Source: Methylocystis iwaonis (GTDB lineage: Bacteria; Pseudomonadota; Alphaproteobacteria; Rhizobiales; Beijerinckiaceae). From it: a stretch of DNA of 64,000 nucleotides. The stretch is from NCBI RefSeq assembly GCF_027925385.1, contig NZ_AP027142.1, positions 1,594,001 through 1,658,000 of the forward strand. The letters are read 5' to 3'. The first letter of the stretch is position 1. Each line of letters opens with the position of its first letter. Below are positions 7,051-49,177 of this stretch, piece by piece. Under the pieces are notes generated by a model that was not told the DNA's origin, did no database searches, and was given only the letters and a program-made list of their open reading frames with translations. Position numbers and translations under genes: made by a program.

Positions 7051-8016
7051 CTAAACGGCTTCGGTCGTGAGGGCGGGGGCGTCGAGCAGGAATTTCTCCG
7101 TCTCCAGCGCCGCCATGCAGCCGAGCCCCGCGGCGGTCACCGCCTGCCGATAGACTTCATCGGCCACGTCGCCAGCCGCGAAGACCCCCGGGATATTCGT
7201 GCGGGTCGAGCCCGGCTCGACGGCGATATAGCCCGAGGACTTCAATTCGAGCTGACCCTTGAAGAGCTCCGAGGCGGGCGCATGGCCGATGGCGATGAAG
7301 ACGCCGTCGGCGTCGATTAGCTGCGTCTCGCCGGTTTTGGAGTGTTTCACGCGCGCGCCGGTGACGGAAAGCGGGCCTTCCGTGCCGACCACCTCGTCGA
7401 TCACATGATCGAAGAGCACGGTGACATTCGCCTGCCTGTGGAGCCGCTCCTGCAGCACGCGCTCGGAGCGCAGCGTGTCGCGCCGATGCACGAGGGTCAC
7501 ATGCGAGGCGAGGTTGGAGAGGTAAAGCGCCTCTTCGACGGCCGTATTGCCGCCGCCGACGACGATCACCTTCTTGCCGCGGAAGAAAAAGCCATCGCAG
7601 GTCGCGCAGGCCGAGACGCCGAAGCCCTTGAATTTCTCTTCGCTCGGAATGCCGAGCCATTTCGCTTTCGCGCCCGTCGAAATGATCAGCGCGTCGCAAG
7701 TGTAGGTCGCGCCGCTGTCGCCGATGAGCGTGAAGGGCCGTTTGTCGAGGCGGGCTTCGACAATATGGTCGGAGACGAGCTTCGTGCCGACATGCTCGGC
7801 CTGCAGCCGCATCTGCTCCATCAGCCAGGGGCCCTGGATGGGCTCGGCGAAGCCGGGGTAGTTCTCGACCTCCGTCGTGATCATGAGCTGGCCGCCCTGC
7901 TCGAAGCCGGCGATGAGCATGGGCTCCAACATGGCGCGCGCCGTGTAGATCGCCGCCGTATAGCCGGCCGGCCCTGAGCCGATGATGATGACGCGCGCAT
8001 GGTTGGGGGCGGACAT
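7051..8016 (-). CDS. trxB: Thioredoxin-disulfide reductase
   Basis: About 321 residues. It has an N-terminal FAD-binding motif (GSGPAGYTAAIY), the redox disulfide CATC near residue 139 in the NADPH domain, an NADPH site (VVGGGNTAVEEA) and the C-terminal FAD motif (GVFAAGDVAD). It reduces thioredoxin with NADPH in the cytoplasm. I chose the ATG at 8016 (MSAPNHARV), which matches family N-termini; a GTG at 8046 preceded by GGAAAGA is an alternative start adding ten residues. Confidence 0.96.
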   Translation of the reverse strand: MSAPNHARVIIIGSGPAGYTAAIYTARAMLEPMLIAGFEQGGQLMITTEVENYPGFAEPIQGPWLMEQMRLQAEHVGTKLVSDHIVEARLDKRPFTLIGDSGATYTCDALIISTGAKAKWLGIPSEEKFKGFGVSACATCDGFFFRGKKVIVVGGGNTAVEEALYLSNLASHVTLVHRRDTLRSERVLQERLHRQANVTVLFDHVIDEVVGTEGPLSVTGARVKHSKTGETQLIDADGVFIAIGHAPASELFKGQLELKSSGYIAVEPGSTRTNIPGVFAAGDVADEVYRQAVTAAGLGCMAALETEKFLLDAPALTTEAV

Positions 8017-8081
8017 GGGAGACTCTTGGGTTGCGATGCAATTCACTCTTTCCGCCAGCGGAAAGAGGGGAGGGCGGCAAT

Positions 8082-9128
8082 CTAGCGATTATGCGCCGCG
8101 CCGCAACTGCGCTGCTTCGCGAGGAAAGCGACGTAGTCTTTCTCGATCCGCCGCGCGACTATCGGCGTCGAATTGATTGGCTTATATGTCCAGTCCTCGA
8201 AAGGCCCTCGCAAGATACGGATGGCGCCCGCGCCTTCGAGCGCCGCGAGATAGGCCTTGATTTTACGCCGGATCACGAAGGGTTCGAGGACATGAACCGG
8301 AACGCCGGTCGCCGCCGCCTCTCCAACCATATTGACGCTGTCGCCCGTCACGACGATGCGGTCGGCGTTCGCCAGCATGGAAAAATAGGGATTGGCGCCT
8401 TCGCCGTCCCAGAACCAGCCCCCGGGCGCAGAGAGAGCTTGCCGTAGCGCGGCGGCGATTTCCGGCGGCGTGCGCCGGGAGGCGGTCGCCATCACGCCAT
8501 AACCGGCGTCGAGAAGCGTGCTCGCGATGAAATCGAGATCGTAAAGAAGCCCCTCGGCGCTGCCGATGAGCATGGCGACGCGCGGGCGGGGCAAAGCGGC
8601 GAAGCGCGGGTCGGGCGCCGCGCGGGCCGCGGCGAGCCGCTCGGGGGTGATACGGTTCGGCGGCGTGATCGGCGCAATGACATTCGGACCTGTGAGCCTA
8701 TCGTGGCGCGGGGCGACGATGAGGTCCGCGGTCTTCAGGCCTGTGGCCGGGGCGTTGAGATAGACGGTGAAAGTCCGCCCGCCCGAGCAGCGCTTGAGGC
8801 GCCGCAGCGCCGGGATGGTCCGCCGGCCGGCGGCGATGGCGATGTCGGGGTAGGGCGGCGCGTAGGCTTGCGCGTCCAAAGTATCGGGCGGCCCAAAAGG
8901 CGCAACAAGCTCATAGAGCCGGCGGGGCGCGATCCGGCGGATGTCGGGCGTCAGGCCGAGCGCCTCGGCGACGCCGAGCGTCTGCGCTTCATGACCGGCG
9001 CGGCCGTCCGAGAGGATGCGGAGCGTCGGCTGCGCCGGCGCTGCTTCGACTTTTCCGGTTGCGGCGAGAGGGGGTGGGCGAGAGCCGGAGCCGGCCACGA
9101 ATTCTCCTGGTCCCGCCGCATACCCCAA
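8082..9128 (-). CDS. Mitochondrial fission ELM1-family protein
   Basis: 348 residues with the ELM1/DUF1022 signature: LRILSDGRAGHEAQTLGVAEALG near residue 36 and the glycosyltransferase-B-like C-terminal stretch VVTGDSVNMVGEAAATGVPVHV. The plant homologue affects mitochondrial fission; the bacterial role is not established, and the fold suggests a nucleotide-sugar-dependent transferase. The N-terminal 30 residues are low complexity, so the start could lie further downstream. It lies directly downstream of greA (11 bases), so they may be co-transcribed. Confidence 0.85.
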   Translation of the reverse strand: MGYAAGPGEFVAGSGSRPPPLAATGKVEAAPAQPTLRILSDGRAGHEAQTLGVAEALGLTPDIRRIAPRRLYELVAPFGPPDTLDAQAYAPPYPDIAIAAGRRTIPALRRLKRCSGGRTFTVYLNAPATGLKTADLIVAPRHDRLTGPNVIAPITPPNRITPERLAAARAAPDPRFAALPRPRVAMLIGSAEGLLYDLDFIASTLLDAGYGVMATASRRTPPEIAAALRQALSAPGGWFWDGEGANPYFSMLANADRIVVTGDSVNMVGEAAATGVPVHVLEPFVIRRKIKAYLAALEGAGAIRILRGPFEDWTYKPINSTPIVARRIEKDYVAFLAKQRSCGAAHNR

Positions 9129-9139
9129 ACGGACGAAGT

Positions 9140-9619
9140 TTACGAAACGAAGGCGACCTTCAAAATCTCATAGCTCTTGCCGCCGCCGGGGGTCTTCACT
9201 TCCACGGTGTCGCCGACGGTCTTGCCGATCAGCGCGCGGGCAATCGGGCTCGAGATGGAGACGCGGCCGCTCTTCACATCGGCTTCGGTTTCGCCGACGA
9301 TCTGATAGGCTTTCTCCTCTTCAGTGTCCTCGTCGACCACCGTGACGGTCGCGCCGAATTTGATCGTCGTGGAGCCCGTGAGCTTGGAGATGTCGATGAC
9401 CTCGGCGCGGGAAAGCTTGTCTTCGAGCTCTGCGATGCGGCCTTCGTTCAGCGATTGTGACTCTTTGGCCGCATGATATTCCGCGTTCTCCGACAAATCA
9501 CCGTGGGCGCGGGCCTCGGCGATCTGCTGGATGATGCGCGGGCGGTCTTCCTGCTGACGACGGCGCAATTCCTCTCCGAGCGCCGCATAGCCAGCGGCTG
9601 TCATGGGCACCTTCTCCAT
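9140..9619 (-). CDS. greA: Transcription elongation factor GreA
   Basis: 159 residues, typical length. The N-terminal coiled coil enters the RNA polymerase secondary channel, with the acidic tip in [15 protein letters not shown] near residue 39. The C-terminal FKBP-like domain carries the usual [17 protein letters not shown] stretch. GreA restarts backtracked polymerase by stimulating transcript cleavage. It is transcribed in the same direction as carB, 217 bases downstream of it; that gap shows no gene. Confidence 0.96.
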
Positions 9620-9836
9620 TGGTCTCGCTCTTCGCCTTTCCGATCAATTGTCGGGGAATGTCTTCCTCGCCCCCGCGGGCCAAATGCGCCGGCGCGGGAA
9701 ACCCCGAATCATATGTCCGATAGTCTTGCCGCGAAAGCGGCGCAGCGCCATGCCTTCCGAGCGCTTTTGGCGCGATATTCCGCCGCGCCAACGCCCGAAG
9801 GCGGCTTGGGAAGCGCGCCTTCTATCTTCCTTATCT

Positions 9837-12800
9837 TCAACCGGCTGCGGGCCGGAAATAATCCTGCAGCGCCCGCGCCTCTAGATCCCCCGACACATAA
9901 GCCTTCACGCCCTGCGCCGCCGCGATCGCGCCGGCGAGAGTCGTATAATAGGGAACCTTATGCAGAAGCGCCGCGCGGCGCAAGGAACGCGAGTCGGCGA
10001 GCGCCTGCGCGCCTTCCGTCGTGTTGAAGACAAGCTGGATCGCGCCGTTTTTGATGGCGTCGACGATATGCGGCCGGCCTTCCGAGACCTTGTTGATCTT
10101 CTGCGCGGCGATGCCCTGCTCCTGCAGGTAGCGGGCGGTGCCCCCCGTCGCGACCACGCTGAAGCCAATGTCCGTCAGCAGGCGGATCGCCGGCAGGATG
10201 CGCGGCTTGTCGGCGTCGCGCACCGAGACGAACAGCACGCCGCCGCGCGGCGCCTTGGTGCCGCCGCCAAGCTGGCTCTTCACGAAGGCTGCGTCGAAGG
10301 AGACGTCGAGGCCGATGACTTCGCCGGTCGAGCGCATCTCCGGGCCGAGCACAGTGTCGACGCCGGGGAAGCGCGCGAAGGGGAAGACCGCTTCCTTCAC
10401 GCCGATATGGTTCGGCGGGGTGGAGGGCAGGGTGAAGCTTGAGAGCTTCTCGCCCGCCATCACGCGTGCGGCGATCTTGGCGAAAGGCGCGCCGACGACC
10501 TTGGCGACGAAGGGCACGGTGCGCGAGGCGCGCGGGTTCACTTCGAGAACATAGATCTCGCCGTCCTTGAGCGCATATTGCACATTCATCAGCCCCACGA
10601 CGCCGAGCGCCATGGCGAGGCTCTTGGTCTGCTCCTCCAGCGCGGCGATGGTCTCCGGCGTGAGCGAGCGCGGCGGCAGCGAGCAGGCCGAGTCGCCCGA
10701 GTGAATGCCGGCTTCCTCGATATGCTCCATGACGCCCGCGATAGCCGCTTGCGCGCCGTCGGCAATGCAATCCACGTCGACTTCGATCGCGTCGGTCAGA
10801 TAGCGGTCGAAGAGCAGCGGGTTTTTGCCGAGCACCATATTGATCTGCCCGGTCTTGTCATTGGGGTAACGCGTCTTGATCTCGGAGGGCACGAGGCTCG
10901 GCAGAGTCCCGAGCAGATAATCATCCAGCGCGCCGCTGTCGCGGATGATGGCCATGGCGCGGCCGCCGAGCACATAGGAAGGACGCACGACGAGCGGCAG
11001 GCCGAGCTCGCCCGCGACGATGCGCGACTGCTCGACCGAATAGGCGATGCCGTTCTTGGGCTGCTTGAGGCCGAGCTTGTCGAGCAGGCGCTTGAAGCGG
11101 TCGCGGTCCTCGGCGAGATCAATCGAATCGACGGGCGTGCCAAGGATGGGCGCGCCGGTTTTTTCGAGCCCATGCGCGAGCTTCAACGGCGTCTGGCCGC
11201 CATATTGGACGATGATGCCGGTCAGGGTTCCGTTCGACTTCTCGACGTCGAGAATCTCCGACACGTCCTCATTGGTCAGCGGCTCGAAATAGAGGCGGTC
11301 CGAGGTGTCGTAGTCGGTGGAGACCGTCTCGGGATTGCAGTTGATCATGATCGTTTCGAAGCCGGCGTCGGCCAGCGCGAAACAGGCGTGACAGCAGCAA
11401 TAGTCGAATTCGATGCCCTGGCCGATGCGGTTCGGCCCGCCGCCGAGAATGACGATCTTCTTGCGATCGGAGGGATTGGCCTCATTCGCTGGGACGCCGG
11501 CGAAGGGCGTCTCATAGGTCGAATACATATAGGCGGTGGGGGAGGCGAATTCGGCTGCGCAAGTGTCGATGCGCTTATAGACCGGCCGCACGCCGAGCGC
11601 ATGGCGCGCCGCGCGCACGGCTGATTCTTCGAGCCCGGTGAGCGTCGCGAGGCGCGTGTCGGAGAAGCCGGCGAATTTCAGCTTGCGCAGATTCTCCGCG
11701 TCCGTCGGCAGGCCAAATTTCTTCACCTTCTCTTCGAGCGCCACAATCTCTGCAACGCGCGCGATGAACCAGGGATCGATCTTGCTGGCTTCATGCACTT
11801 CGGCCTGCCTCATGCCGAGACGCAGCGCCTGGCCGACGACGAGCAGGCGATCCGGCGTCGGCGTGCCCAGCGCGCCGCGCAGGACGTTCATATCGTCGCC
11901 CTTGCCGAGCCCCTCGACCTCGATCTCGTCGAGACCCGAGAGGCCCGTCTCCAGCGAGCGCAGCGCCTTTTGCAGCGACTCGGCGAAATTGCGGCCGATC
12001 GCCATGGCTTCGCCGACCGACTTCATGGCGGTCGTCAGAACGGGCTCGGAGCCGGGGAATTTCTCGAAGGCGAAACGGGGAATCTTGGTGACAACGTAGT
12101 CGATCGTCGGCTCGAAGGAGGCCGGCGTCGCGCCGCCGGTGATGTCATTGGCGATTTCGTCGAGCGTGTAGCCGACGGCGAGCCGCGCGGCGACCTTGGC
12201 GATGGGAAAGCCCGTCGCCTTCGAGGCCAGCGCCGAGGAGCGCGACACGCGCGGATTCATCTCGATGACGATCATGCGGCCGGTGCGCGGATCGACCGCG
12301 AATTGCACGTTCGAGCCGCCCGTCTCGACGCCGATCTCGCGCAGCACGGCGAGCGAGGCGTCGCGCATGATCTGATATTCTTTGTCGGTGAGCGTCAGCG
12401 CCGGGGCGACGGTGATGGAGTCGCCGGTATGCACGCCCATCGGATCGATGTTCTCGATCGAGCAGACGATGATGCAATTGTCCGCTTTGTCGCGGACGAC
12501 CTCCATCTCATATTCTTTCCAGCCGAGGACGCTTTCCTCGATCAGCACTTCATTGGTGGGCGAGGCGTCGATGCCGCGTTCGACGATCTCGATGAACTCG
12601 GCCTTGTTATAGGCGATCCCGCCGCCGGTGCCGCCGAGCGTGAAGGACGGGCGGATGATGGCGGGCAGGCCGATGTCGTCCAGCGCCTCGAGCGCCGCGG
12701 CGAGCGTCTTGATGTGGTGCGAGCGCGGCGTGTCGAGGCCGATCTTGGTCATGGCCTCGCGGAAGAGCTCGCGGTCCTCGGCCTTGTCGATGGCGTGCGC

Positions 12801-13172
12801 CGTGGCGCCGATCATCTCCACGTCGAATTTTTCGAGCACGCCCATCTTCTCGAGGGAGAGGGCGCAGTTGAGGGCCGTCTGGCCGCCCATTGTGGGGAGC
12901 AGCGCAAAGCCGCCCGGAATGGCGTAGCGCTCCTTCTCGATGATCTTGGCGACAAATTCCGGCGTGATCGGCTCGACATAGGTGCGATCGGCCAGATCCG
13001 GGTCGGTCATGATCGTCGCCGGATTGGAATTGACCAGGACGATCCGATAGCCTTCCGCCTTCAGCGCCTTGCAAGCCTGCGTGCCGGAATAGTCGAATTC
13101 GCAGGCCTGGCCGATAACGATGGGCCCGGCGCCGATGATCAGGATAGTCGATATGTCGGTTCTTTTCGGCAT
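9837..13172 (-). CDS. carB: Carbamoyl-phosphate synthase large subunit
   Basis: 1111 residues from [16 protein letters not shown] at 13172; the frame stays open upstream to 13511, but those codons have no family similarity. It has two ATP-grasp halves ([11 protein letters not shown]... and [14 protein letters not shown]...), the oligomerisation domain between them, and the C-terminal MGS-like regulatory domain (about 945-1111, [14 protein letters not shown]). With CarA it makes carbamoyl phosphate for pyrimidines and arginine. carA is not adjacent in this window. The leader has an unusual terminator-like hairpin (13374-13400). Confidence 0.97.
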
Positions 13173-40434: not shown

Positions 40435-41124
40435 TTGTCGGTTTTTGATGGAATCCCTTTTTTCGCCGGTCTCGATCCCTCACGCGGCGAGACCTTCGGG
40501 CGGCAATGCATACGTAAGCGCTTTTCCGAGGGTGAGCTGGTTCTCGACTTCGACGACCCCTCGACGGACGTCTACTTCATCGTGAGCGGCGACGTGCGCG
40601 TCCTCATCCGCACGGCCGCGGGCAAGGAGATGATCCTCGGTGACTTCGGCCCCGGCAACTTCTTCGGGGAGATGGCGGCCATCGACGGCGCCAAGCGCTC
40701 CGCCAATGTCACCGCGCTGACCAACGCCGAGCTTTTGCTCGTGCCGCCGACGGCCTTTCGCGAGATCGTCCTGCATTCGCCCGAGATTGCGGAGCGGCTT
40801 ATGCGGCTTCTCACCTCGCGCGTGCGCGAGCTCAATGTGCGCCTCTTCGAGCGCTCGGTGCTCGATCTGCGCCATCGCCTCTATGCGGAGCTGCTGCGCA
40901 TGGCGTCGCCACGCAAGGGGCACGACGGCCAATCCATCGTCTCGCCGCCGCCCTTCCAGCACGATCTCGCCGCCCGCATCGGCTGCCGCCGCGAGCAGGT
41001 CAGCCGCGAGCTCGGCGCCATGACGGAGGAGGGGCTCGCCGAGAAAGTCCGCGGCGGCCTCGTCCTGCTGCGTCCGAACGTGCTCGAAAAGCGCGTGCGC
41101 GACGCAATGAACGCCGCCGAATGA
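40435..41124 (+). CDS. Crp/Fnr-family transcriptional regulator
   Basis: 229 residues from a TTG at 40435 with GGAG about ten bases upstream; an in-frame stop lies just above, and no ATG occurs early. The N-terminal cyclic-nucleotide-binding jelly roll (about 5-125) includes DFGPGNFFGEMAAIDGAKRSANVTAL, near the FGE-(R)-S phosphate-binding cassette of cAMP-binding members. The C-terminal winged helix (about 150-225) has QHDLAARIGCRREQVSRELGAM. No Cys cluster for Fe-S is evident, so nucleotide sensing is more likely than oxygen sensing. An adenylate cyclase lies 3 kb downstream. Confidence 0.9.
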   Translation: MSVFDGIPFFAGLDPSRGETFGRQCIRKRFSEGELVLDFDDPSTDVYFIVSGDVRVLIRTAAGKEMILGDFGPGNFFGEMAAIDGAKRSANVTALTNAELLLVPPTAFREIVLHSPEIAERLMRLLTSRVRELNVRLFERSVLDLRHRLYAELLRMASPRKGHDGQSIVSPPPFQHDLAARIGCRREQVSRELGAMTEEGLAEKVRGGLVLLRPNVLEKRVRDAMNAAE

Positions 41125-41203: not shown

Positions 41204-41668
41204 ATGACTCCCCGGTTGACGCCGATCGAACGCTGCGTGGACGTCGCGGGCCTGGCGCCGCATGAGATTGTGCTCGGCGTCAGCCCCAGCAAAAAGCATG
41301 AGCAGATGCTCGCGCATTATCGCCGCTCCAGGCGTTCGAGCGCCGTCGCGCGGGTGAAGATCGTCGCCGACCTGCGCGCCGCGGTCAGCCGGGGCGCGGC
41401 GGCGGATGCAGCGGATTTGTTGCTCGTGCTGCGACGGCTCCTCGCCGTGAAACCCGTGCGCCGGGCCGTTCGGCGCCCGGCGCCGGCCACGCGCCGGCGA
41501 GGCAATCCGCCCAGGAATCGAGCGAGCTGGGCCGCGCCGAGCGCGTGTATGGCAGGCGGCGCGTCCGAGATGGCTGCGCTACCCGCTGTGCTTCATCTGC
41601 AACACTGCCAGACAGTTTCTCTTCTCTTTTCGGAGAAAACGCGGGGCGAAACGAGCCGAACGAGCTGA
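41204..41668 (+). CDS. Conserved hypothetical protein with doubtful C-terminus
   Basis: The first ~90 residues (TPIERCVDVAGLAPHEIVLGVSPSKKHEQML, then RVKIVADLRAAVSRGAAADAADLLLVLRRLL in pieces) resemble a short helical protein common in Hyphomicrobiales with no known function. After about residue 95 the sequence becomes arginine- and alanine-rich and no longer looks like the family. That suggests a frameshift or a non-conserved tail; the open frame ends at 41668. GAGGACGAGG precedes the ATG. Confidence 0.6.
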   Translation: MTPRLTPIERCVDVAGLAPHEIVLGVSPSKKHEQMLAHYRRSRRSSAVARVKIVADLRAAVSRGAAADAADLLLVLRRLLAVKPVRRAVRRPAPATRRRGNPPRNRASWAAPSACMAGGASEMAALPAVLHLQHCQTVSLLFSEKTRGETSRTS

Positions 41669-41679
41669 AAATAACCTTT

Positions 41680-41692
41680 TAACAAAATGTTA
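41680..41692. promoter_or_regulatory. Palindromic AT-rich site upstream of the barrel-FecR-cyclase operon
   Basis: TAACA-AAA-TGTTA is a perfect inverted repeat in an unusually AT-rich patch (41666-41692), with GGATAATCT 20 bases further on as a possible -10-like element. It may be an operator or promoter for the following operon. It does not match the E. coli CRP consensus. Confidence 0.3.
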
Positions 41693-41748
41693 CTTCGAGT
41701 CGGGGCGGATAATCTCAATGTTTTCGGGCGCTTGCCGCAAGGCGGCGT

Positions 41749-43155
41749 TTGAGTCAGCTTCGACGCCGCTGGAAAAGGCTCGTCCATCCGGGGGGTAGGC
41801 GTTTGTTTTTTAAAAGTAGATACGTATCCGAGAAGCTTTTGGGCGGCCTTTGCGCCCTCGTTGCGCTTTGCGCATCCGCTTCGGCTCAGGAGGTTCGAGC
41901 CGAGCGCGACCGTCTCGCAAGCCACATCCAGGCGCGTCCCGAGGATTACGAAGCGACCTATCGCTTCGTGATTTTGGCGACGGAGCTGCGCGATTACGAG
42001 GCCGCCATCGGCGCGCTCGAGCGGGTTCTCATGTTCAATCCGAACCTGACGCGCGCCCGCAAGGAGCTGGGTTTCCTCTACGCGCGCCTCGGCGCGTGGG
42101 AGGTGGCGGCCGGGCATTTGCGCGCCGCCAAGGCCGCCGGGGACCTCGATGCGGTTCAGAGCGCGCAGATCGACGCGCAGCTTCCCGACATCGAGAAGCA
42201 TATGCAGTCGAGCCGCCTGTCGGTGCGCATCCATACGGGTTTGCGCGCCCAGTCGAACGCCAATTATTTCCCGGCGGGCAATCTCTTCCAGATCGGCGGA
42301 ATCGGGCTCGCGTCGGCGGGGCCGCGCAAGGGCGACATGAACGCCTTCCAGCTCGTGCTCGCCGCGCATGACTGGGAATTTGGCGGCCAGCGCGGCGACC
42401 AGCTCGAGACGCGCGTCACGGCCTATGCGACCGAGCAGTTCAGCCTGCCGCAATATAGCGTGGCGCTTTTCGCCGCCACGATCGGGCCGCGCTTCTTCGT
42501 GCCGCAGACCCTGGTCAGCAATTTGTCGGTGCGGCCCTATTTGACCGGCGCCGTCTCCATGCTCGGCTCCAACAATTACCTCAACGCCGGCGGGGCGGGC
42601 GCGAGCGTCCGGGCGGACCTCGGCCCGGATTTTTGGTTGGAGCCCGGCGCCGAATGGCGCGGCCTATGGGTCGATCCCGTCCGAGGCGTCTTCGGGCCGT
42701 CGCCCTATCGGACGCTGTCGACGCTGGCCACGGGCGACGTCGTTACCGGTTATCTGAGCGGCTCCTATCGCCTGCTCGATACCGTGCGGCTCGACGGCCG
42801 CGTCGCTTATTCGCGCGCCACGGCGGGCTATGCCGCGCAAAGCTCGGATCAGGTTGACGTGCAAGCGATGTTGCGGCTCGAAGTGGAGCCGCCCCATCCG
42901 ATGATCGCGCGCCGCTGGACGATCGCCCCCTATGCGCGCTTCACCAATCTGGCGTTCGACACAGCGAATCTTCTCGTGAACCCTTTCGTCGCCCGCCACG
43001 ACTCCGCCTGGAACTATGGGCTGATGCTGGACGCGCCGATCACCGAGACCTTCGGTTTTGCCGGCAATCTCGAATTCATGCGCAATGATTCCAATTTGCC
43101 GAATTTCAAGACGCAGAATGTCTCCGTCTCCTTCGGTCCGACGGCGAAATTCTAA
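41749..43155 (+). CDS. TPR-containing outer-membrane beta-barrel protein
   Basis: 468 residues from a TTG at 41749; a second TTG at 41803 gives a tidier signal peptide (cleaved after ASASAQ). TPR-like helices span about 45-150 (DYEATYRFVILATELRDYEAAIGALERVL in pieces, then NLTRARKELGFLYARLGAWEVAAGHL). From about 160 the sequence alternates in beta-barrel style and ends ...VSVSFGPTAKF, with the terminal Phe typical of BAM substrates. The layout recalls Slam/DUF560 proteins (TPR plus barrel), which export surface lipoproteins, but I cannot confirm that family. It heads an operon with FecR and cyclase genes. Confidence 0.75.
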   Translation: MSQLRRRWKRLVHPGGRRLFFKSRYVSEKLLGGLCALVALCASASAQEVRAERDRLASHIQARPEDYEATYRFVILATELRDYEAAIGALERVLMFNPNLTRARKELGFLYARLGAWEVAAGHLRAAKAAGDLDAVQSAQIDAQLPDIEKHMQSSRLSVRIHTGLRAQSNANYFPAGNLFQIGGIGLASAGPRKGDMNAFQLVLAAHDWEFGGQRGDQLETRVTAYATEQFSLPQYSVALFAATIGPRFFVPQTLVSNLSVRPYLTGAVSMLGSNNYLNAGGAGASVRADLGPDFWLEPGAEWRGLWVDPVRGVFGPSPYRTLSTLATGDVVTGYLSGSYRLLDTVRLDGRVAYSRATAGYAAQSSDQVDVQAMLRLEVEPPHPMIARRWTIAPYARFTNLAFDTANLLVNPFVARHDSAWNYGLMLDAPITETFGFAGNLEFMRNDSNLPNFKTQNVSVSFGPTAKF

Positions 43156-43167
43156 GGGAGCCGCGCT

Positions 43168-44016
43168 ATGAGGAATGTTTCTGTTCTTGCGCTTGCGACC
43201 ATCGGCCTCTTCGCCTGCTTCCCCGCCAACGCGGAAAAAGTGGGCAATATCGGCGCTGTCAATGTCGCCGCGCATGGCACGCCGCCCGGCGCGGCGAAAC
43301 ATCCGCTCTCCGTCGGCCTCGGCGTCGAGAAGCGCGAGCGGATAGAGACTGCCAGCGAGGGCAGCGCGCAGATCGTTTTCAACGACACCTCGACGATGAC
43401 GGTCGGCCGCAGCAGCTCGGTCGTCATCGATGATTTCGTTTACAACGGCGCGAGTGGCAGCCAGGGCGTCAGTCTCGCCAAGGGCGTGATGCGTTTTGTG
43501 GGCGGAGGCGTCAGTCATGAATCCGGCGCCACATTCAAAACGCCGACAGCGTCGATCGGCCTTCGCGGCGGGTCGATCATGGTGCGCCTCGGCGGCGAAT
43601 GCGAGGCGCTCGTCTATCACCAGAATGGCGTGACCGAGGTTGTGGGGGCTCAGGGGAGTTCTCAAATACTGAACCGGCCGGGCTTCGGCGTATGCGCCCG
43701 CAGCAGCGGCGTCTCGGAGCCTTTCCGCGTGCCGCCGGAAATCATCGCCGCCATGAACGCGCAGCTCGCGAGCCTGAAGGGCCAGTCCGGCGGCGCCAGG
43801 AAGAAGCCGCGCGAGGAGGAGGCCGAGCTTCTGCTCGGGCACGATCGCGCGCCTTCCGTCGAACCGCCGCCCGGCCTCGATGCATTGGGGCCTGTTTGGG
43901 CCGGAAACGCCCTGGTTCAGAGCAGCGCCAACGTCGAAAACCAGCCGTTCCCGCCGCCGGCCCCGCCGCCGCCTGAGCACTGCCGAGGCGAGCTCTGCGG
44001 CCGTCCGCGCCTTTGA
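43168..44016 (+). CDS. Secreted FecR-domain protein
   Basis: 282 residues. A signal peptide (about 1-22, ends FPANA) and a FecR domain (about 45-150) with RIETASEGSAQIVFNDTSTMTVG and the repeated turns of SSSVVIDDFVY and GVMRFVGGGVSHESG are visible. SFKTPTASIGLRGGS-like text (actual TFKTPTASIGLRGG) is the family hallmark. A Cys pair (GGECEA, FGVCARS) may form a disulfide. The C-terminus is charged, then proline-rich (PPPAPPPP) and ends CRGELCGRP. Unlike classical FecR it has no cytoplasmic anti-sigma segment and should be periplasmic. It lies 12 bases after the barrel gene and 54 before the cyclase. Confidence 0.85.
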   Translation: MRNVSVLALATIGLFACFPANAEKVGNIGAVNVAAHGTPPGAAKHPLSVGLGVEKRERIETASEGSAQIVFNDTSTMTVGRSSSVVIDDFVYNGASGSQGVSLAKGVMRFVGGGVSHESGATFKTPTASIGLRGGSIMVRLGGECEALVYHQNGVTEVVGAQGSSQILNRPGFGVCARSSGVSEPFRVPPEIIAAMNAQLASLKGQSGGARKKPREEEAELLLGHDRAPSVEPPPGLDALGPVWAGNALVQSSANVENQPFPPPAPPPPEHCRGELCGRPRL

Positions 44017-44070
44017 TGGTTGTGACGGCTGGGCCAGGCGTCGATCGATCTGGCCCGGCCGTTTAAAGAG

Positions 44071-46287
44071 ATGCTCACACGCAAGCAGGCATTTCTCGTC
44101 GCATCGTTCGTCGCCGCCGCGCTTTTCCTGCCATGGGGCGCGCTGCAGCCGCGGGCGCTCGACGACATGCGTAATGTCGTCTTCGACAATTTTCAGCGCG
44201 CCGCGCCGCGCGTCTATGATCCCGAGACTCCCGTGCGGGTGGTCGGCGTCGACGAGGAGAGCCTGAAAGCTTACGGCCAGTGGCCCTGGCCGCGAACGCG
44301 GCTCGCCGAATTGGTCGAGCGACTGCGCGCGCTGGGGGCCGGCGCCATCGCCTTCGACTTCATCTTTTCCGAGCCCGACCGCGCCAGCCCGCATATGCTC
44401 GTCGATGCGCTCGAGGACGCCAGGCTGCGCGCGGACGTCTCGAAGCTCCTCGCCAAGGCGCCCGACGGCGACATCGCCTTCGCAAATGCGCTGAAGGGCG
44501 CGCCAGTCGTGCTTGGCGCGACGCTCGCACCGACGGGAGCGAACGATTTTTCCGCCAAAGCCGGTTTCGTGACGGCGGGCGACGATCCGGCGCCTTTCCT
44601 TTACGCCTTCCCGGCGATCGTTGCGCCGCTGCCGGGCCTCGCCGCCAATGCGCAGGGTCTCGGCGCAACGAACTGGCTGCCGGACCGCGATCTGGTCGTG
44701 CGCCGGGTGCCCTTGCTGTCTCGCCTCGGCGCGGCGCTCGCGCCGTCTCTCGCGCTCGAAGCCTTGCGCGTTGCGCAGGGCGAGCCGAGCATCGTCATCC
44801 GATCCTCCAACGCCAGCGGCCAGACGGCTTTTGGCGCGCAGACGGGCGTCAATGCGGTGAAGGTCGGCGCCTTTCAGATTGCGACCGGCCCCAACGCCGA
44901 GGTGCGTCCGCGTTACAGCCACAGAGCGCGGGCCCGCGACATCTCGGCCAAGGCGGTGCTGCAATATCAGGTTGCGCGCAGCGAGATCGAGGGGCGCATC
45001 ATTTTCGTCGGAGCCCTCGCCGTGGGGCTCGGCGACGTGCGGGCGACGCCGCTGGACCCTGTGACGCCCGGCGTCGACGTGCATGCGCAGATCGTCGAGT
45101 CGCTCGCGAACGGCGCGCTTCTGTCGCGACCCGACTGGGCGCCGGGGCTGGAGTATGTCGTCGCCATCGTCGCCTTTGCGCTGACCATGCCGCTGCTCTT
45201 CGCCGCGCCGCAGCTTTTGTCGGCGGCTTTCGCTTTTGCTGCGATCGGCGCGTTCTTCGGCGGCTCTTTCTATCTTTTCGAAAAGCAGGGCCTTCTGCTC
45301 GATCCAGCCTATCCGAGCCTCGTTGTCGTCGGCGCTTATGTCGTCGGCGCGCTGACGCTGTGGCGCACGGAAATTCTCGCGCGGCGTCAGGTGCGGCGCG
45401 CCTTCGGCAAATTCGTCGCGCCCGCAGTCGTCGACCGCATCGCCGAACATCCGGAGCGTCTCGTTCTCGGCGGCGAGACGCGTGAATTGACCGTGCTTTT
45501 CTCGGACCTGCGCGACTTTTCCGGAATTTCGGAAGGCATGAGCGCGCGCGAGCTCACGCAATTCATGAACGACTATCTGACGCCCATGACCGACGCCATT
45601 CTCGAATGCGAAGGCACGGTCGATAAATATATGGGCGACGCCATCCTCGCCTTCTGGAATGCGCCGCTCGACGTCACGGATCATCCGCGCAAAGCCGTCG
45701 AGGCGGCGCTGCGCATGCGGGCCGAAATGGCGCGGTTCAACGCGCAACGGGCGCAAGCGGCGCAGGCGGCCGGGCGTTTGCATGTCGAGGCGGCGATGGG
45801 CCTGGGGCTCAACATCGGCCCTTGCAGCGTCGGGAATATGGGCTCGATACGGCGCTTCGATTATTCGATCCTGGGCGACAATGTGAATCTAGCTTCGCGG
45901 TTAGAGGGCGCGAGCAAGGCTTTCTCGACCGACATCATCGCCTCTGGCGCCGTCCGGGAGGCGGTTCCCGATATGGCCTGGCTCGATCTCGGGCGCATCG
46001 TCGTCGCCGGGCGGAGCGAGCCGACGCAGGTCTTCGCGCTGGCGGGGGACGCTGATGTCGCGAAAACGGATGCGTATGTGCGCTGGCGCACAACGCATGA
46101 CGCCATGCGCGCCCATTATGAAGCGGGCCGATTCGACGCCGCCGCCGAGTGCGCGGCCGAGCTGGCCCTGAAGGCTCCCGGCGCCTGGCCTGCGCTCTAT
46201 CTGGCGATGGGAAAACGATATTCAGCGCTCGCTCAGCAGGGCTTGCATGAAGGTTGGTCTTCGGTATGGAATCTCCTGAGCAAGTGA
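44071..46287 (+). CDS. CHASE2-domain adenylate cyclase (class III)
   Basis: 738 residues. An N-terminal membrane helix (about 7-25) precedes a periplasmic CHASE2 sensor (about 35-345, VVGVDEESLKAYGQWPWPR, GAGAIAFDFIFSEPD). Three transmembrane helices follow (about 352-440), then the cyclase domain (about 468-665): FSDLRDFS with both metal Asp, DKYMGDAILAFWN with the adenine-selecting Lys, and YSILGDNVNLASRLEG with Ser at the second selectivity position and the Asn and Arg of catalysis, as in class IIIb. A TPR-like tail (about 670-738) closes it. It makes cAMP in response to a periplasmic cue, probably passed by the FecR and barrel proteins. Confidence 0.9.
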   Translation: MLTRKQAFLVASFVAAALFLPWGALQPRALDDMRNVVFDNFQRAAPRVYDPETPVRVVGVDEESLKAYGQWPWPRTRLAELVERLRALGAGAIAFDFIFSEPDRASPHMLVDALEDARLRADVSKLLAKAPDGDIAFANALKGAPVVLGATLAPTGANDFSAKAGFVTAGDDPAPFLYAFPAIVAPLPGLAANAQGLGATNWLPDRDLVVRRVPLLSRLGAALAPSLALEALRVAQGEPSIVIRSSNASGQTAFGAQTGVNAVKVGAFQIATGPNAEVRPRYSHRARARDISAKAVLQYQVARSEIEGRIIFVGALAVGLGDVRATPLDPVTPGVDVHAQIVESLANGALLSRPDWAPGLEYVVAIVAFALTMPLLFAAPQLLSAAFAFAAIGAFFGGSFYLFEKQGLLLDPAYPSLVVVGAYVVGALTLWRTEILARRQVRRAFGKFVAPAVVDRIAEHPERLVLGGETRELTVLFSDLRDFSGISEGMSARELTQFMNDYLTPMTDAILECEGTVDKYMGDAILAFWNAPLDVTDHPRKAVEAALRMRAEMARFNAQRAQAAQAAGRLHVEAAMGLGLNIGPCSVGNMGSIRRFDYSILGDNVNLASRLEGASKAFSTDIIASGAVREAVPDMAWLDLGRIVVAGRSEPTQVFALAGDADVAKTDAYVRWRTTHDAMRAHYEAGRFDAAAECAAELALKAPGAWPALYLAMGKRYSALAQQGLHEGWSSVWNLLSK

Positions 46288-46349
46288 TCGCCGCCTCTCC
46301 TGCGCCACGCGCATCTCAACCCTCCGCACCGAAAGATCGCCGCCAGCGC

Positions 46350-47033
46350 ATGACAGAAACAATCGTCGAAAAATACTGGTCGCTTATCGCGGCGCGGCAT
46401 GATGCGCAGGCTTTCTCGACGATCGACCTCGCCTATAACGAGCCGCAGCGCGCCTATCACGCATGGGGACATATCGTCGATCTGCTCACCAAGCTCGATG
46501 CGCTGGCGCATCTGGCGACGCGCGTCGACCTCGTGGCGGCGGCGATCTTCTGGCACGATTCCGTCTATCTCACGCGCGACGGCGATGGACGCCCGCGCAC
46601 CGACCCGGAGAATGTGCGCGCGAGCGCGGTGCTGTTCGAATTTCATTCTCGCTTCGACGAGGTCGAAGGGCAGGCGATCCACGACCTCATCATGGCGACG
46701 GCGCAGCATATGAAGGCAAAGGCGGCGACCGAGCATTACCCGGGATTTTCGCGCGACCTCGATTTTTTCCTCGATCTCGACCTCTCGTCGCTCGCCGCGC
46801 CCTGGCCGTTGTTCGAGAGCAATCTCGACGATATTCACTTCGAATATGGCTGGGTGCCCGAACGCGCCTTTTATCTCGGCCGCATGCAGATGCTCGAAAG
46901 CTTTCTTGCTTCTGGCGAGGGGCTGTACCGCCTGCCGGAGACGCGCGCTTTGTGGCTCGCGCAGGCGCGCGCAAATCTGCTGCGCGCGGAAGTGGCGCTA
47001 CGAGACAGGCTGGCGGGGCCCGCCTCTGCGTGA
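46350..47033 (+). CDS. HD-superfamily metal-dependent phosphohydrolase (COG4339-like)
   Basis: 227 residues from ATG at 46350 (MTETIVEKYW). The HD signature is visible: YHAWGHIVDLL near 33 (His), AAIFWHDSVY near 65 (His-Asp) and IHDLIMATAQHMK near 108 (His). Starts at 46254 (TTG) or 46266 (ATG, GAAGG upstream) would add low-complexity residues and overlap the cyclase gene, coupling their translation. The natural substrate of this family is unknown. Its place right after an adenylate cyclase makes a nucleotide substrate plausible, but that is inference. Confidence 0.8.
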   Translation: MTETIVEKYWSLIAARHDAQAFSTIDLAYNEPQRAYHAWGHIVDLLTKLDALAHLATRVDLVAAAIFWHDSVYLTRDGDGRPRTDPENVRASAVLFEFHSRFDEVEGQAIHDLIMATAQHMKAKAATEHYPGFSRDLDFFLDLDLSSLAAPWPLFESNLDDIHFEYGWVPERAFYLGRMQMLESFLASGEGLYRLPETRALWLAQARANLLRAEVALRDRLAGPASA

Positions 47034-47157: not shown

Positions 47158-47330
47158 CGTCATTGCGAGGAGGCGGAGCCGACGAAGCAATCCAGGGCCG
47201 CATCGCTGCCCTGGATTGCTTCGCTTCGCTCGCAATGACGGTCTGAGTAAAACCAGCGCTTTTGTGGCTCTGGATTGCCGGTCGGGCTTGCAGCCCGCCG
47301 GGAATGACAAGCCCCCATGCGAGCGGTTCA
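47158..47330. repeat. repeat A copy 6 followed by repeat C
   Basis: Family A arms at 47158-47240 are followed by AAAACCAGCGCTTTTGTGGC and the palindrome GCCGGTCGGGCTTGCAGCCCGCCGG (about 47278-47304), then GCGAGCGGTTCAAACGG. The order and spacing match the composite element at 6331-6589, but the left end is missing. Confidence 0.85.
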
Positions 47331-47343
47331 AACGGCAATAATA

Positions 47344-48846
47344 TTACTTGATGATCAGTCGCCCATCCACTACAGGCGCAATCGTCCCCGCCTTCTCGAT
47401 CGCCTCCATCACCACCGTCGACAGCAGCGGCGCCTCGTCTTCGGTGACGAGCGGCTTGCCGCGCGTAAAGGCCTCATAGCCGTCCTTGCCGGCGGCGAGA
47501 TAGTCGTTGGTCGCGACCTTATAGAGGCGCGCGTCGTCGAGCGGCGCGCCGCCGATGTCGATCGTGGCAATGCGCGATCCGGGGACAGCGTCGCGCCGCG
47601 CGACGATGCGGGCGCCCGACAGTTGCGGGAAGCGGCCCGCGTCCTTGCCGAGCTTCCAGAGGCCGCTTTCGAGGGCCGCGCGCAGATCGGCGCCGCGCAG
47701 TTCCAGCGTGATGAGCTTATTGTTGAAGGGAAGCGCCGCCACGACCATTTTGCGCGCGAGCTTCGTTCCGGGCGAAAGGACCGTATCGCTGCGAATGCCG
47801 CCGCCATTGATCAGTGCGACGTCCGCGCCGGTCCTGGCGCGCATGGCGTCGGCGATGAAATCGCCGATCGCCGTCTCCTGGCTGCGCACGGACGATTTGC
47901 GCGCATCGAGCTCGGTCTGCGTGGCGCCGATGATCTGATCGAGATCTTTGTCCATGCTCGCGCGATATTCCGCGACGCGGGCTGCGACAGCGGAGTCAGG
48001 CGTGGCGTCGGCGGTGTCGATGATGCGGAACTTCGGCGTCCAGCGCACCTTGCGAGCGCCGGCGTCGGACGCCGAGATTGTCAGATCGACCGCGACGATT
48101 TGCGCGCCGTCGGCCTGCGTTTCGGCAATCGCCGCGCGGCCGTCATAAGCGACGAACAGATTATGGTCGTGGCCGGAGAGCACAATGTCGATCGCGCCCG
48201 TCTTGGCGAGGCGCAAATCGTCCCGCCACTCCGAATGAGTCACGACAACGATAAGATCGGCGCCGTCGTCACGCAGCCGCTGCGCCTGCTGCTGCGCGGC
48301 GTCTATGGCCGGCGAGATTTGCAGCGACCCGGTGTTGGAGCGCTTGGCGGATTCATCCTCCGTGAGGCCGAAGACGCCGATTTTCACGCCATCGACGTCG
48401 AAAATCTTGCTATCCGAAAAGCCGGGCAGGGGCTTGCCGGCGCCGTCGCGCAGATTGGCGGCGAGGCGTAAAGCCTGCAACTCCGACATGCGCTTGCGAA
48501 ACACGTCCTCGCCGAAATCGAATTCGTGATTGCCCGGGGTGAAGACGTCGATCTTTGTGCGATTGATGAGATCGATGATATGCGCGCCCTTGTCGAGGCT
48601 GGACATGAGCGAGGGCGAGATGGTGTCGCCCGCAAGCGCGACGAGGACATTCTTGGTCTTCGCACGCTCGGCGCTAAGGACGCCGGCGACGCGCGCAAAG
48701 CCGCCGCGCCCGTTCGTCTCCGCCATTTCGTAAATGTCGCTGAAAACGAGGAGCGTGGCGTCGACCGTGCGTTCGGCGGCTTGCGCGGGCAAGGCGGCGA
48801 GGAAAAGGGCAAAGGGGAGAGCGTGACGAATCTTCATGCCCCGCAT
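47344..48846 (-). CDS. Bifunctional metallophosphatase/5'-nucleotidase, periplasmic
   Basis: 500 residues from ATG at 48846 (MRGMKIRHALPF; ATG at 48837 is an alternative). A signal peptide ends ALPAQA. The N-terminal metallophosphatase domain has FSDIYEMAETNGRGGFARVAG, ALAGDTISPS, PGNHEFDFG, VTHSEWRDD and SGHDHNLF; Tyr replaces the His of the usual DxH in the first motif. The C-terminal nucleotidase domain has GDFIADAMRARTGADVALINGGGIRSD, the ribose/base site TNDYLAAGKDGY, and EGLPF-like LPFNNKLITLEL. It should hydrolyse nucleotides outside the inner membrane. It is convergent with the HD gene. Confidence 0.9.
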   Translation of the reverse strand: MRGMKIRHALPFALFLAALPAQAAERTVDATLLVFSDIYEMAETNGRGGFARVAGVLSAERAKTKNVLVALAGDTISPSLMSSLDKGAHIIDLINRTKIDVFTPGNHEFDFGEDVFRKRMSELQALRLAANLRDGAGKPLPGFSDSKIFDVDGVKIGVFGLTEDESAKRSNTGSLQISPAIDAAQQQAQRLRDDGADLIVVVTHSEWRDDLRLAKTGAIDIVLSGHDHNLFVAYDGRAAIAETQADGAQIVAVDLTISASDAGARKVRWTPKFRIIDTADATPDSAVAARVAEYRASMDKDLDQIIGATQTELDARKSSVRSQETAIGDFIADAMRARTGADVALINGGGIRSDTVLSPGTKLARKMVVAALPFNNKLITLELRGADLRAALESGLWKLGKDAGRFPQLSGARIVARRDAVPGSRIATIDIGGAPLDDARLYKVATNDYLAAGKDGYEAFTRGKPLVTEDEAPLLSTVVMEAIEKAGTIAPVVDGRLIIK

Positions 48847-48893
48847 GTTTGCGCGCTTCAAATGACACGGGCAATACGCGCCTGATACCATTT

Positions 48894-49098
48894 CCGTTTG
48901 ATAGCTCCCGAAAGGCTCGATCGGGAATCCAGAGCCGCAAGAGCGCTGGTTTCGCTCAGGGCCGTCATTGCGAGCGAAGCGAAGCAATCCAGGGCGGCGA
49001 TGCGACGCTGGATTGCTTCGTCGGCTCCACCTCCTCGCAATGACGGCGTTAAATCCGATCGCACGATCGTCAGGATCAACACCGAACCAATCAAGCGG
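48894..49098. repeat. composite MITE-like element, inverted copy
   Basis: It runs from CCGTTTGATAGC to CCAATCAAGCGG, the same imperfect terminal inverted repeat as 6331-6589, in the opposite orientation. It contains repeat C (TCGATCGGGAATCCAGAGCC side) and repeat A (48963-49044). It lies between the amt terminator and the metallophosphatase start, in a 330-base gap with no gene. Confidence 0.7.
48963..49044. repeat. repeat family A, copy 7
   Basis: Arms CGTCATTGCGAGCGAAGCGAAG and CTTCGTCGGCTCCACCTCCTCGCAATGACG face each other. It lies inside the composite element. Confidence 0.85.
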
Positions 49099-49116
49099 AA
49101 CCCGTGTGAGAACGAT

Positions 49117-49143
49117 AAAAAGAAACGGCGCCCGTGGGCGCCG
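49117..49143 (-). terminator. Rho-independent terminator of glnK-amt
   Basis: On the minus strand the perfect stem CGGCGCC-CACG-GGCGCCG is followed by TTTCTTTTT, 35 bases past the amt stop. Confidence 0.85.
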
Positions 49144-49177
49144 CTCCAACTTTTGCTTGGGGACAGATCAGCAATCG

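Follow-up and report, generated by a model that had tools for sequence, protein, structure and literature searches.

Introduction

In FecIRA cell-surface signalling, the FecR domain is positioned between a barrel in the outer membrane and the output on the inner side. The locus described here lies in a 64,000-nucleotide stretch of the 4.48 Mb genome of Methylocystis iwaonis (hereafter the window; contig NZ_AP027142.1, G000:C1:1594001-1658000), where the gene for a FecR-domain protein is placed between those for an outer-membrane beta-barrel protein with tetratricopeptide repeats (TPRs) and a CHASE2-adenylate cyclase. In Sinorhizobium meliloti, NsrA is required for CyaK-dependent signalling (PMC7529298), as part of the NsrA-CyaK/CyaD1/CyaD2-Clr system (PMC7529298, PMC13001267). 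According to a figure legend, the barrel portion of NsrA comprises residues 600-1200, and the available passages of that work give uL2 as the outside signal and do not say what touches CHASE2 (PMC7529298). A cluster encoding a CHASE2-cyclase, a FecR outer-membrane protein, a TPR protein and a phosphodiesterase was inferred to form one pathway in Campylobacterota (PMC9239204). A Burkholderia operon carries a FecR-LysM gene beside that of a CHASE2 histidine kinase, and the recognition target of CHASE2 was called unknown in the same 2016 paper (PMC5192318).

On balance, it appears somewhat more likely than not that the Methylocystis locus encodes a trans-envelope cyclic AMP (cAMP) module, leading from a surface element through FecR and the CHASE2-cyclase to cAMP and a CRP-family regulator. 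The basis of this explanation is the homologies, gene linkage and co-occurrence in genomes, which were observed; contact between the proteins, direction of the signal, transport and the binding of cAMP by CRP are inferred.

Results and Discussion

Organization of the locus

The original prediction described four same-strand genes with short gaps, encoding a TPR outer-membrane barrel, a FecR protein without an anti-sigma segment, a CHASE2 sensor fused to an adenylate cyclase, and an HD phosphohydrolase. All four genes were read from the sequence at that place on the + strand. The barrel protein has 468 residues from a TTG start, its exact start being uncertain; the FecR gene (282 residues) follows after 12 nt, the cyclase gene (738 residues) after a further 54 nt, and the HD-like gene after 62 nt when counted from its ATG (46350-47033), or from 46254 if an upstream TTG is used. 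The arrangement and the first three assignments were thus borne out. A CRP/FNR-family gene, overlooked at first, sits 0.6 kb upstream on the same + strand. The features are as follows.

40435..41124, + strand: CRP/FNR-family regulator with a cyclic nucleotide (cNMP)-binding domain and a helix-turn-helix (HTH), likely cAMP receptor (Pfam, NCBIfam, genus orthologues)
41587..41604, no strand: imperfect palindrome TGT-N12-ACA 5' of the barrel gene, possible operator (by eye)
41749..43155, + strand: TPR and outer-membrane beta-barrel protein, apparently a divergent relative in the Slam/DUF560 superfamily (Pfam TPR_9, hhalign)
43168..44016, + strand: FecR-domain protein, predicted to be Sec-exported, with a Pro-rich tail and without an anti-sigma or transmembrane segment (PF04773, signal peptide by eye)
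44071..46287, + strand: CHASE2 sensor and class III adenylate cyclase (Pfam, active-site residues, matches to solved structures)
46350..47033, + strand: HD-like hydrolase gene, a genus-specific neighbour outside the conserved core (counts of genus versus class loci)

In Pfam at E ≤ 1, the barrel protein has a TPR_9 match that exceeds the cut-off and a sub-threshold match to OMP_b-brl (E 0.014). The FecR protein matches PF04773 above the cut-off (E 1.9e-10) and nothing else in Pfam at E ≤ 1, so that it has no anti-sigma segment, and no sigma factor was found in a scan of eight proteins, namely the five of the locus and three encoded nearby. The cyclase matches CHASE2 (E 8e-53) and Guanylate_cyc (E 2.5e-14), and solved class III cyclases match its residues from about 398 to 660. 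Residues D479, K519, D523, S599, N606 and R610 are invariant in 13 aligned sequences, namely that of the window and twelve relatives; we assume that they fill the metal, purine and transition-state roles of catalysis and that the Ser at the specificity position marks class IIIb. The cyclase carries the full residue set of a class III adenylate cyclase, and activity is predicted from it.

Conservation within the genus and the class

Among the 39 genomes of the genus, a cyclase match at E ≤ 1e-30 is present in 32, with at least 700 bits in 30 of these. In 19 wide genus regions (L034-L052), FecR was found in 18, the barrel in 17 and the HD gene in 18. The barrel and a strong cyclase occur together in 28 of the 39 genomes, the barrel alone in one (G033), the cyclase alone in two (G016 and G022) and neither in eight; the G016 cyclase lies on a 3.2-kb contig, and several of the eight genomes are incomplete. 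The set is kept across the genus more than by chance. In G020 (C19:20231-21535), the barrel gene appears to be split into three pieces in different frames, which is either a real loss or an assembly error.

In the class, a cyclase match at E ≤ 1e-60 is present in 110 of 289 genomes, at 140 listed places. Regions around 79 of these places, reaching up to about 9-10 kb on each side and in some cases cut by contig ends, are referred to as class loci. FecR is encoded at 33 of them, the barrel at 24 and both at 21, compared with one (FecR) and none (barrel) of 20 control regions of 20 kb whose positions were chosen by hand (one-sided Fisher 0.001 for FecR and 0.002 for the barrel). The sole FecR gene among the controls (L208, 9568-12220, - strand) directly adjoins another CHASE2/cyclase-like gene. 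Barrel and FecR genes are neighbours on one strand at 20 of the 24 class barrel loci, and the order and strand of the three genes vary (barrel-FecR-cyclase, cyclase-barrel-FecR, FecR-barrel-cyclase, or divergent).

A similar picture is given by the 289 class genomes as a whole. Of the 52 with a strong barrel match (at least 190 bits), 51 also have the cyclase, compared with 59 of the 237 others (Fisher 1.5e-24, a figure that ignores kinship; the 52 genomes, the window genome included, fall in 33 families). The 190-bit line, which separates strong barrels from the SlipAM range, was set after the scores were known, and without it the cyclase is present in 53 of 61 barrel-positive genomes; the searches scored the best five or best three candidates per genome. 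In a further set of 80 loci (genome_contigs), FecR was found at 34, the barrel at 19 and both at 17. This set is not independent, because at least three of its contigs are common to the class set and one locus (L227) to the genus set. Loci with barrel, FecR and cyclase are also known from Thalassospira profundimaris and Rhodopseudomonas palustris (L263, L252).

An ordinary neighbourhood, in which the genes are adjacent without a functional link, would accommodate the 43 of 79 class loci that have neither FecR nor barrel within the region. Against the rarity of both partners in the control regions, the co-occurrence in 51 of 52 genomes and the coupled presence and absence within the genus, it appears very improbable.

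It had been asked of the original prediction that the four genes be found together elsewhere. For the barrel, FecR and the cyclase this is so, but the HD gene, present at 18 of 19 genus loci, is found at none of the 79 class loci; its one occurrence in the genome_contigs set is at L227, which is the genus member G027. Since the HD gene is confined to the genus while barrel and FecR recur at class loci, the core consists of barrel, FecR and CHASE2-cyclase. The HD gene, a local neighbour, was rejected as part of the module. Its product has no Pfam or PDB match at E ≤ 1 and a single weak NCBIfam match (E 0.022); therefore, the designation HD hydrolase is based on motifs recognized visually, and we take the protein to be COG4339-like. 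As another candidate partner, an SpdA/CpdA-like phosphodiesterase was rejected: it was found at one of 79 class loci, two of 80 genome_contigs loci, none of 20 control regions and none of 20 regions from the window genome and the genus, and additionally at L204. There, the gene (10610-11371, - strand; under NCBIfam cut-offs) adjoins a pair formed by a barrel and a FecR protein with a cargo-like end, without a cyclase nearby. Genes for NHLP-type bacteriocin export adjoin the FecR/cyclase set at L056 and L057, on plasmids of Shinella and Ensifer.

Relationship of the barrel to the Slam superfamily

A single-sequence search of the window barrel gave no match to SlipAM (PF04575) at E ≤ 1. In the wider barrel family, at E ≤ 0.1, SlipAM was matched by 8 of 29 members (best 4e-7) and TPR_Slam by 10 of 29. 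A search of 115 class genomes for SlipAM returned 11 places at E ≤ 1e-4, all over the cut-off; three of these have a CHASE2-cyclase at a distance of no more than 3 kb, and a fourth adjoins a FecR gene.

Profiles were also compared with hhalign. The window barrel aligned with 14 genus sequences matched six SlipAM proteins with 98.2% probability over 368 columns, and with 41.9% for the barrel part alone. Two class barrel subfamilies reached 99.9% each, and the barrel part alone of the 29-sequence family reached 99.7% over 284 columns. In barrel-only controls, the NsrA type gave 0.2-0.3% and BcsC 0.4-0.7%. Full-length controls, which align wholly or mainly in TPR columns, gave up to 18.8% for BcsC (32.5% against the SlipAM set itself) and 4.7-25.6% for the NsrA type. 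The NsrA-type barrel was thus ruled out as a homologue of the window barrel (0.3%), as was the BcsC type as its family (barrel 0.4-0.7%, from a single BcsC sequence). The nearest barrel homologues, where a source is named, are mostly from Methylocystis. A homologue with 67% identity, from the metagenome of a freshwater sediment, carries the name DUF560 protein in UniRef. From these homologies, the window barrel was concluded to be a probable member of the superfamily of Slam proteins (DUF560, type XI secretion). We do not count it among type XI systems, since the single-sequence SlipAM match is missing and transport is putative.

FecR proteins and their variable C-termini

All 34 FecR proteins in the alignment match PF04773, and their C-termini differ. 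Within the genus, they start, as judged by eye, with signal peptides of the Sec type that lack a conserved lipobox Cys, and end in low-complexity tails, mostly Pro- or Gly-rich. In some relatives encoded beside the same barrel family, the FecR proteins end in a common domain of about 190 residues. Ten chosen C-terminal pieces were searched at E ≤ 1: eight match TbpB_B_D (best 3.5e-5) and six FHBP_C, whereas the piece from L096 has no match and that from L168 is RTX. When the 34 FecR proteins are searched whole, TbpB_B_D is matched at E ≤ 0.1 by only four. The five TbpB_B_D matches found next to a cyclase all fall short of the Pfam cut-off. A profile of 17 FecR ends found GNA2132 (which we take to be NHBA), fHbp and TbpB among solved structures, with a best E of 5.7e-9, and a profile of nine FecR ends also matches proteins encoded beside SlipAM genes (L149/L179 and L155). 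Such FecR-cargo fusions are present at 7 of the 79 class loci, 33 of which have FecR, and at 5 of the 80 genome_contigs loci, with L292 on the same contig as L119. A TbpB/fHbp-type domain is a mark of type XI cargo, and its presence at the C-terminus of these FecR relatives looks new.

Other FecR proteins near cyclases are longer. In five that were scanned, RTX, cadherin, Calx-beta or Ig-like domains are found in varying sets. The Bradyrhizobium proteins at L280, L289 and L298 (1382-1517 residues; cadherin/Ig-like, with RTX repeats too in L298) are encoded just upstream of the CHASE2-cyclase. On Sinorhizobium pSymB, a 1219-residue open reading frame directly upstream of a CHASE2-cyclase contains FecR, TPRs and a long C-terminal region; from position and length, this frame and its neighbour are taken to be NsrA and CyaK. 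The window genome has a second set at L033 (G000:C2:60000-78000; 7432-12986, - strand), where a 1227-residue FecR protein adjoins a CHASE2-cyclase and appears to resemble NsrA in length and position. On visual inspection, the genes on either side of this set look polyketide synthase/nonribosomal peptide synthetase (PKS/NRPS)-like. Among the relatives, the FecR domain thus has different fusion partners, namely a type XI cargo-like barrel, RTX/cadherin adhesins or the receptor barrel itself (NsrA), so that FecR is the constant element and the surface element the variable one.

The surface module is possibly a secretion channel, if transport by the barrel is allowed. A bolder proposal, put forward tentatively, is that the cyclase is coupled to a type XI (Slam-like) channel of the outer membrane and to the FecR-bearing protein exported by it, so that the cell would read the state of its surface-protein export, or of its surface occupancy, as cAMP. 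FecR would then be a general periplasmic plug-in that couples channel cargo, RTX/cadherin adhesins and receptor barrels to CHASE2. Alternatively, and this may be entertained as a real possibility short of a probability, the barrel acts as NsrA does, as a receptor for a ligand from outside, and transports nothing, FecR is a separate periplasmic relay, and the Slam ancestry is mere history. The comparable published system is described as a receptor (PMC7529298), the window FecR has no cargo-like domain, and the window barrel alone has no SlipAM match, all of which suit a receptor. Less easily explained in this way are the relatives in which a barrel of the same family adjoins FecR proteins with a type XI cargo-like barrel, and no homology could be detected between the NsrA-type barrel and that of the window. 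The receptor and the trans-envelope module overlap in their probability, as the relay is common to both.

The CRP-family gene and upstream regulation

The CRP/FNR product matches cNMP_binding (E 9.2e-22) and HTH_Crp_2 in Pfam. It also matches the NCBIfam CRP equivalog model with E 1.5e-22 but under the cut-off (80.1 of 266 bits). Its solved relatives are Crp/Fnr proteins, among them 3h3u and 7pza, the latter presumably Clr. GE followed by R-S is the motif of the cNMP pocket, and the stretch FGEM...KRSA of the window protein aligns with the pocket of 3h3u. The upstream regulator is therefore likely, as judged from its sequence, to be a cAMP receptor. An orthologue is kept at 18 of 19 genus loci; L052 has other CRP-like matches only, and a CRP-like gene of any kind is present at all 19.

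The palindrome TGT-N12-ACA, found by eye in 9 of 12 aligned genus upstream regions, is a possible operator, and its spacing differs from that of the Clr operator, with a published core of GT-N10-AC. For the Clr-type core motif GTNNCNNNNGNNAC, 9.3 matches are expected in the window and 10 were found, which gives no evidence for a Clr-type operator. Sigma-70 promoters (2 against 1.0 expected) and terminators (7 against 6.7) in the window are likewise at chance level.

Other features were observed around the locus. An open frame of 154 residues (41204-41668) between the CRP and barrel genes may be a genuine small gene. A 5'-nucleotidase/metallophosphatase gene (47344-49149, - strand) is convergent with the operon and has a homologue in 6 of 19 genus regions (L035 and L038-L042). 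A palindromic sequence, CATTGCGAG...GCAATCCAG, at about 47160-47310 and 48900-49010, resembles by eye a dispersed repeat element. Three AMO (pmoA/amoA-type) matches were found in the window genome, which together with the named sources of the barrel homologues points to a methanotroph of the genus Methylocystis as the most likely host.

Proposed mechanism

In its most economical form, the trans-envelope module may be described as follows. A Slam-superfamily TPR-barrel would lie in the outer membrane, its TPRs reaching into the periplasm, and would handle or hold the surface element. The FecR domain may act as a periplasmic messenger that reports the state of this element to CHASE2 by contact; CHASE2 would set the activity of the cyclase, if the signal runs inwards; and cAMP would act via the upstream CRP-family regulator, provided that the latter binds it. 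The line from outer membrane to cytoplasm and the cAMP output that had been proposed at the outset find support in the conservation and in the NsrA-CyaK genetics of a comparable system, in the passages available (PMC7529298), but the CRP gene had been missed. The original prediction also took cAMP to be a different output for FecR, which normally signals through sigma factors, but coupling of FecR, TPR and outer-membrane proteins to CHASE2-cyclases has already been published (PMC9239204).

Several observations weigh against the module. The window FecR has no TbpB-type or other cargo-like domain, and four FecR-cargo proteins have no cyclase within their 19-kb regions. Nor do the 43 class loci that lack both partners within the region fit readily. 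In G022, a genome rated 100% complete, the cyclase is 88% identical, yet barrel and FecR are gone from the locus, where no remnant of either was found by tblastn at E ≤ 0.01; elsewhere in G022, there is no barrel match at E ≤ 1e-25, and FecR was not searched for outside the locus. Finally, one study discusses three Clr targets of Sinorhizobium that include the FecR gene SMc02177 (PMC5498481), so that FecR could be an output, although its expression in mature nodules is largely clr-independent (PMC5498481).

This last point belongs to a reverse scheme, in which the cyclase and CRP control the making of a FecR surface protein and its channel, and the linkage reflects the organization of a regulon and not sensing. 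The large adhesin-like or cargo-like FecR proteins of some relatives and the divergent orientation of cyclase and barrel-FecR at some loci are also consistent with it. On the other hand, NsrA, taken as a FecR-TPR-barrel protein, is needed for signal perception with CyaK (PMC7529298), and FecR genes also adjoin CHASE2 histidine kinases (PMC5192318). Overall, the reverse scheme is considered rather unlikely.

For the trans-envelope module, the retention of FecR beside CHASE2 while the surface element changes leads to a concrete claim, namely that CHASE2 reads the FecR domain. The Slam link, if true, joins type XI secretion with cAMP signalling, and it offers a reason for the proximity of a gene for a FecR-bearing protein at 33 of the 79 alphaproteobacterial cyclase loci.

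Comparison with known systems

Among the literature matches listed, which are openly licensed papers, neither a link of such a barrel to Slam or type XI secretion nor the link between FecR and a cargo domain was found. The term 'surface lipoprotein assembly' co-occurs with 'adenylate cyclase' in PMC12721544 and with 'FecR' in PMC11233812, as term matches only. Neither of two papers on type XI secretion (PMC12282271, PMC8406197) uses the words FecR, CHASE2, adenylate or cyclase in its main text, as available, and the available part of the Campylobacterota paper does not state a Slam relation (PMC9239204).

The locus shares with FecIRA the FecR domain between barrel and inner output, but its FecR has no anti-sigma segment and no sigma factor was found among the eight scanned proteins. 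With the Burkholderia operon it has in common a FecR protein beside a CHASE2 sensor; there, the output is a histidine kinase and no barrel is among the genes named (PMC5192318). The Campylobacterota cluster likewise brings together a CHASE2-cyclase, a FecR-domain outer-membrane protein and a TPR protein, with a phosphodiesterase able to hydrolyse cAMP (PMC9239204) where the window has the HD-like gene. In the NsrA-CyaK-Clr system, so far as described in the passages available, an outer-membrane barrel, TPRs and FecR are encoded beside a CHASE2-cyclase, and a CRP-type receptor is part of the pathway. There, FecR, TPRs and a longer C-terminal barrel region are joined in the one protein of 1219 residues that is taken to be NsrA, whereas the window has two genes and a Slam-like barrel. 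Type XI systems (PMC12282271, PMC8406197) share the outer-membrane protein with TPRs and barrel and, in relatives of the locus, a neighbour with a C-terminal TbpB/fHbp-type domain. The window differs from them in its coupling to FecR and a cyclase, in a barrel without a Pfam SlipAM match and in a FecR protein without a cargo-like domain. Therefore, while the outline of a relay from FecR, TPR and outer-membrane proteins to a CHASE2-cyclase is already in print, the link with Slam and the cargo domain appears to be new.

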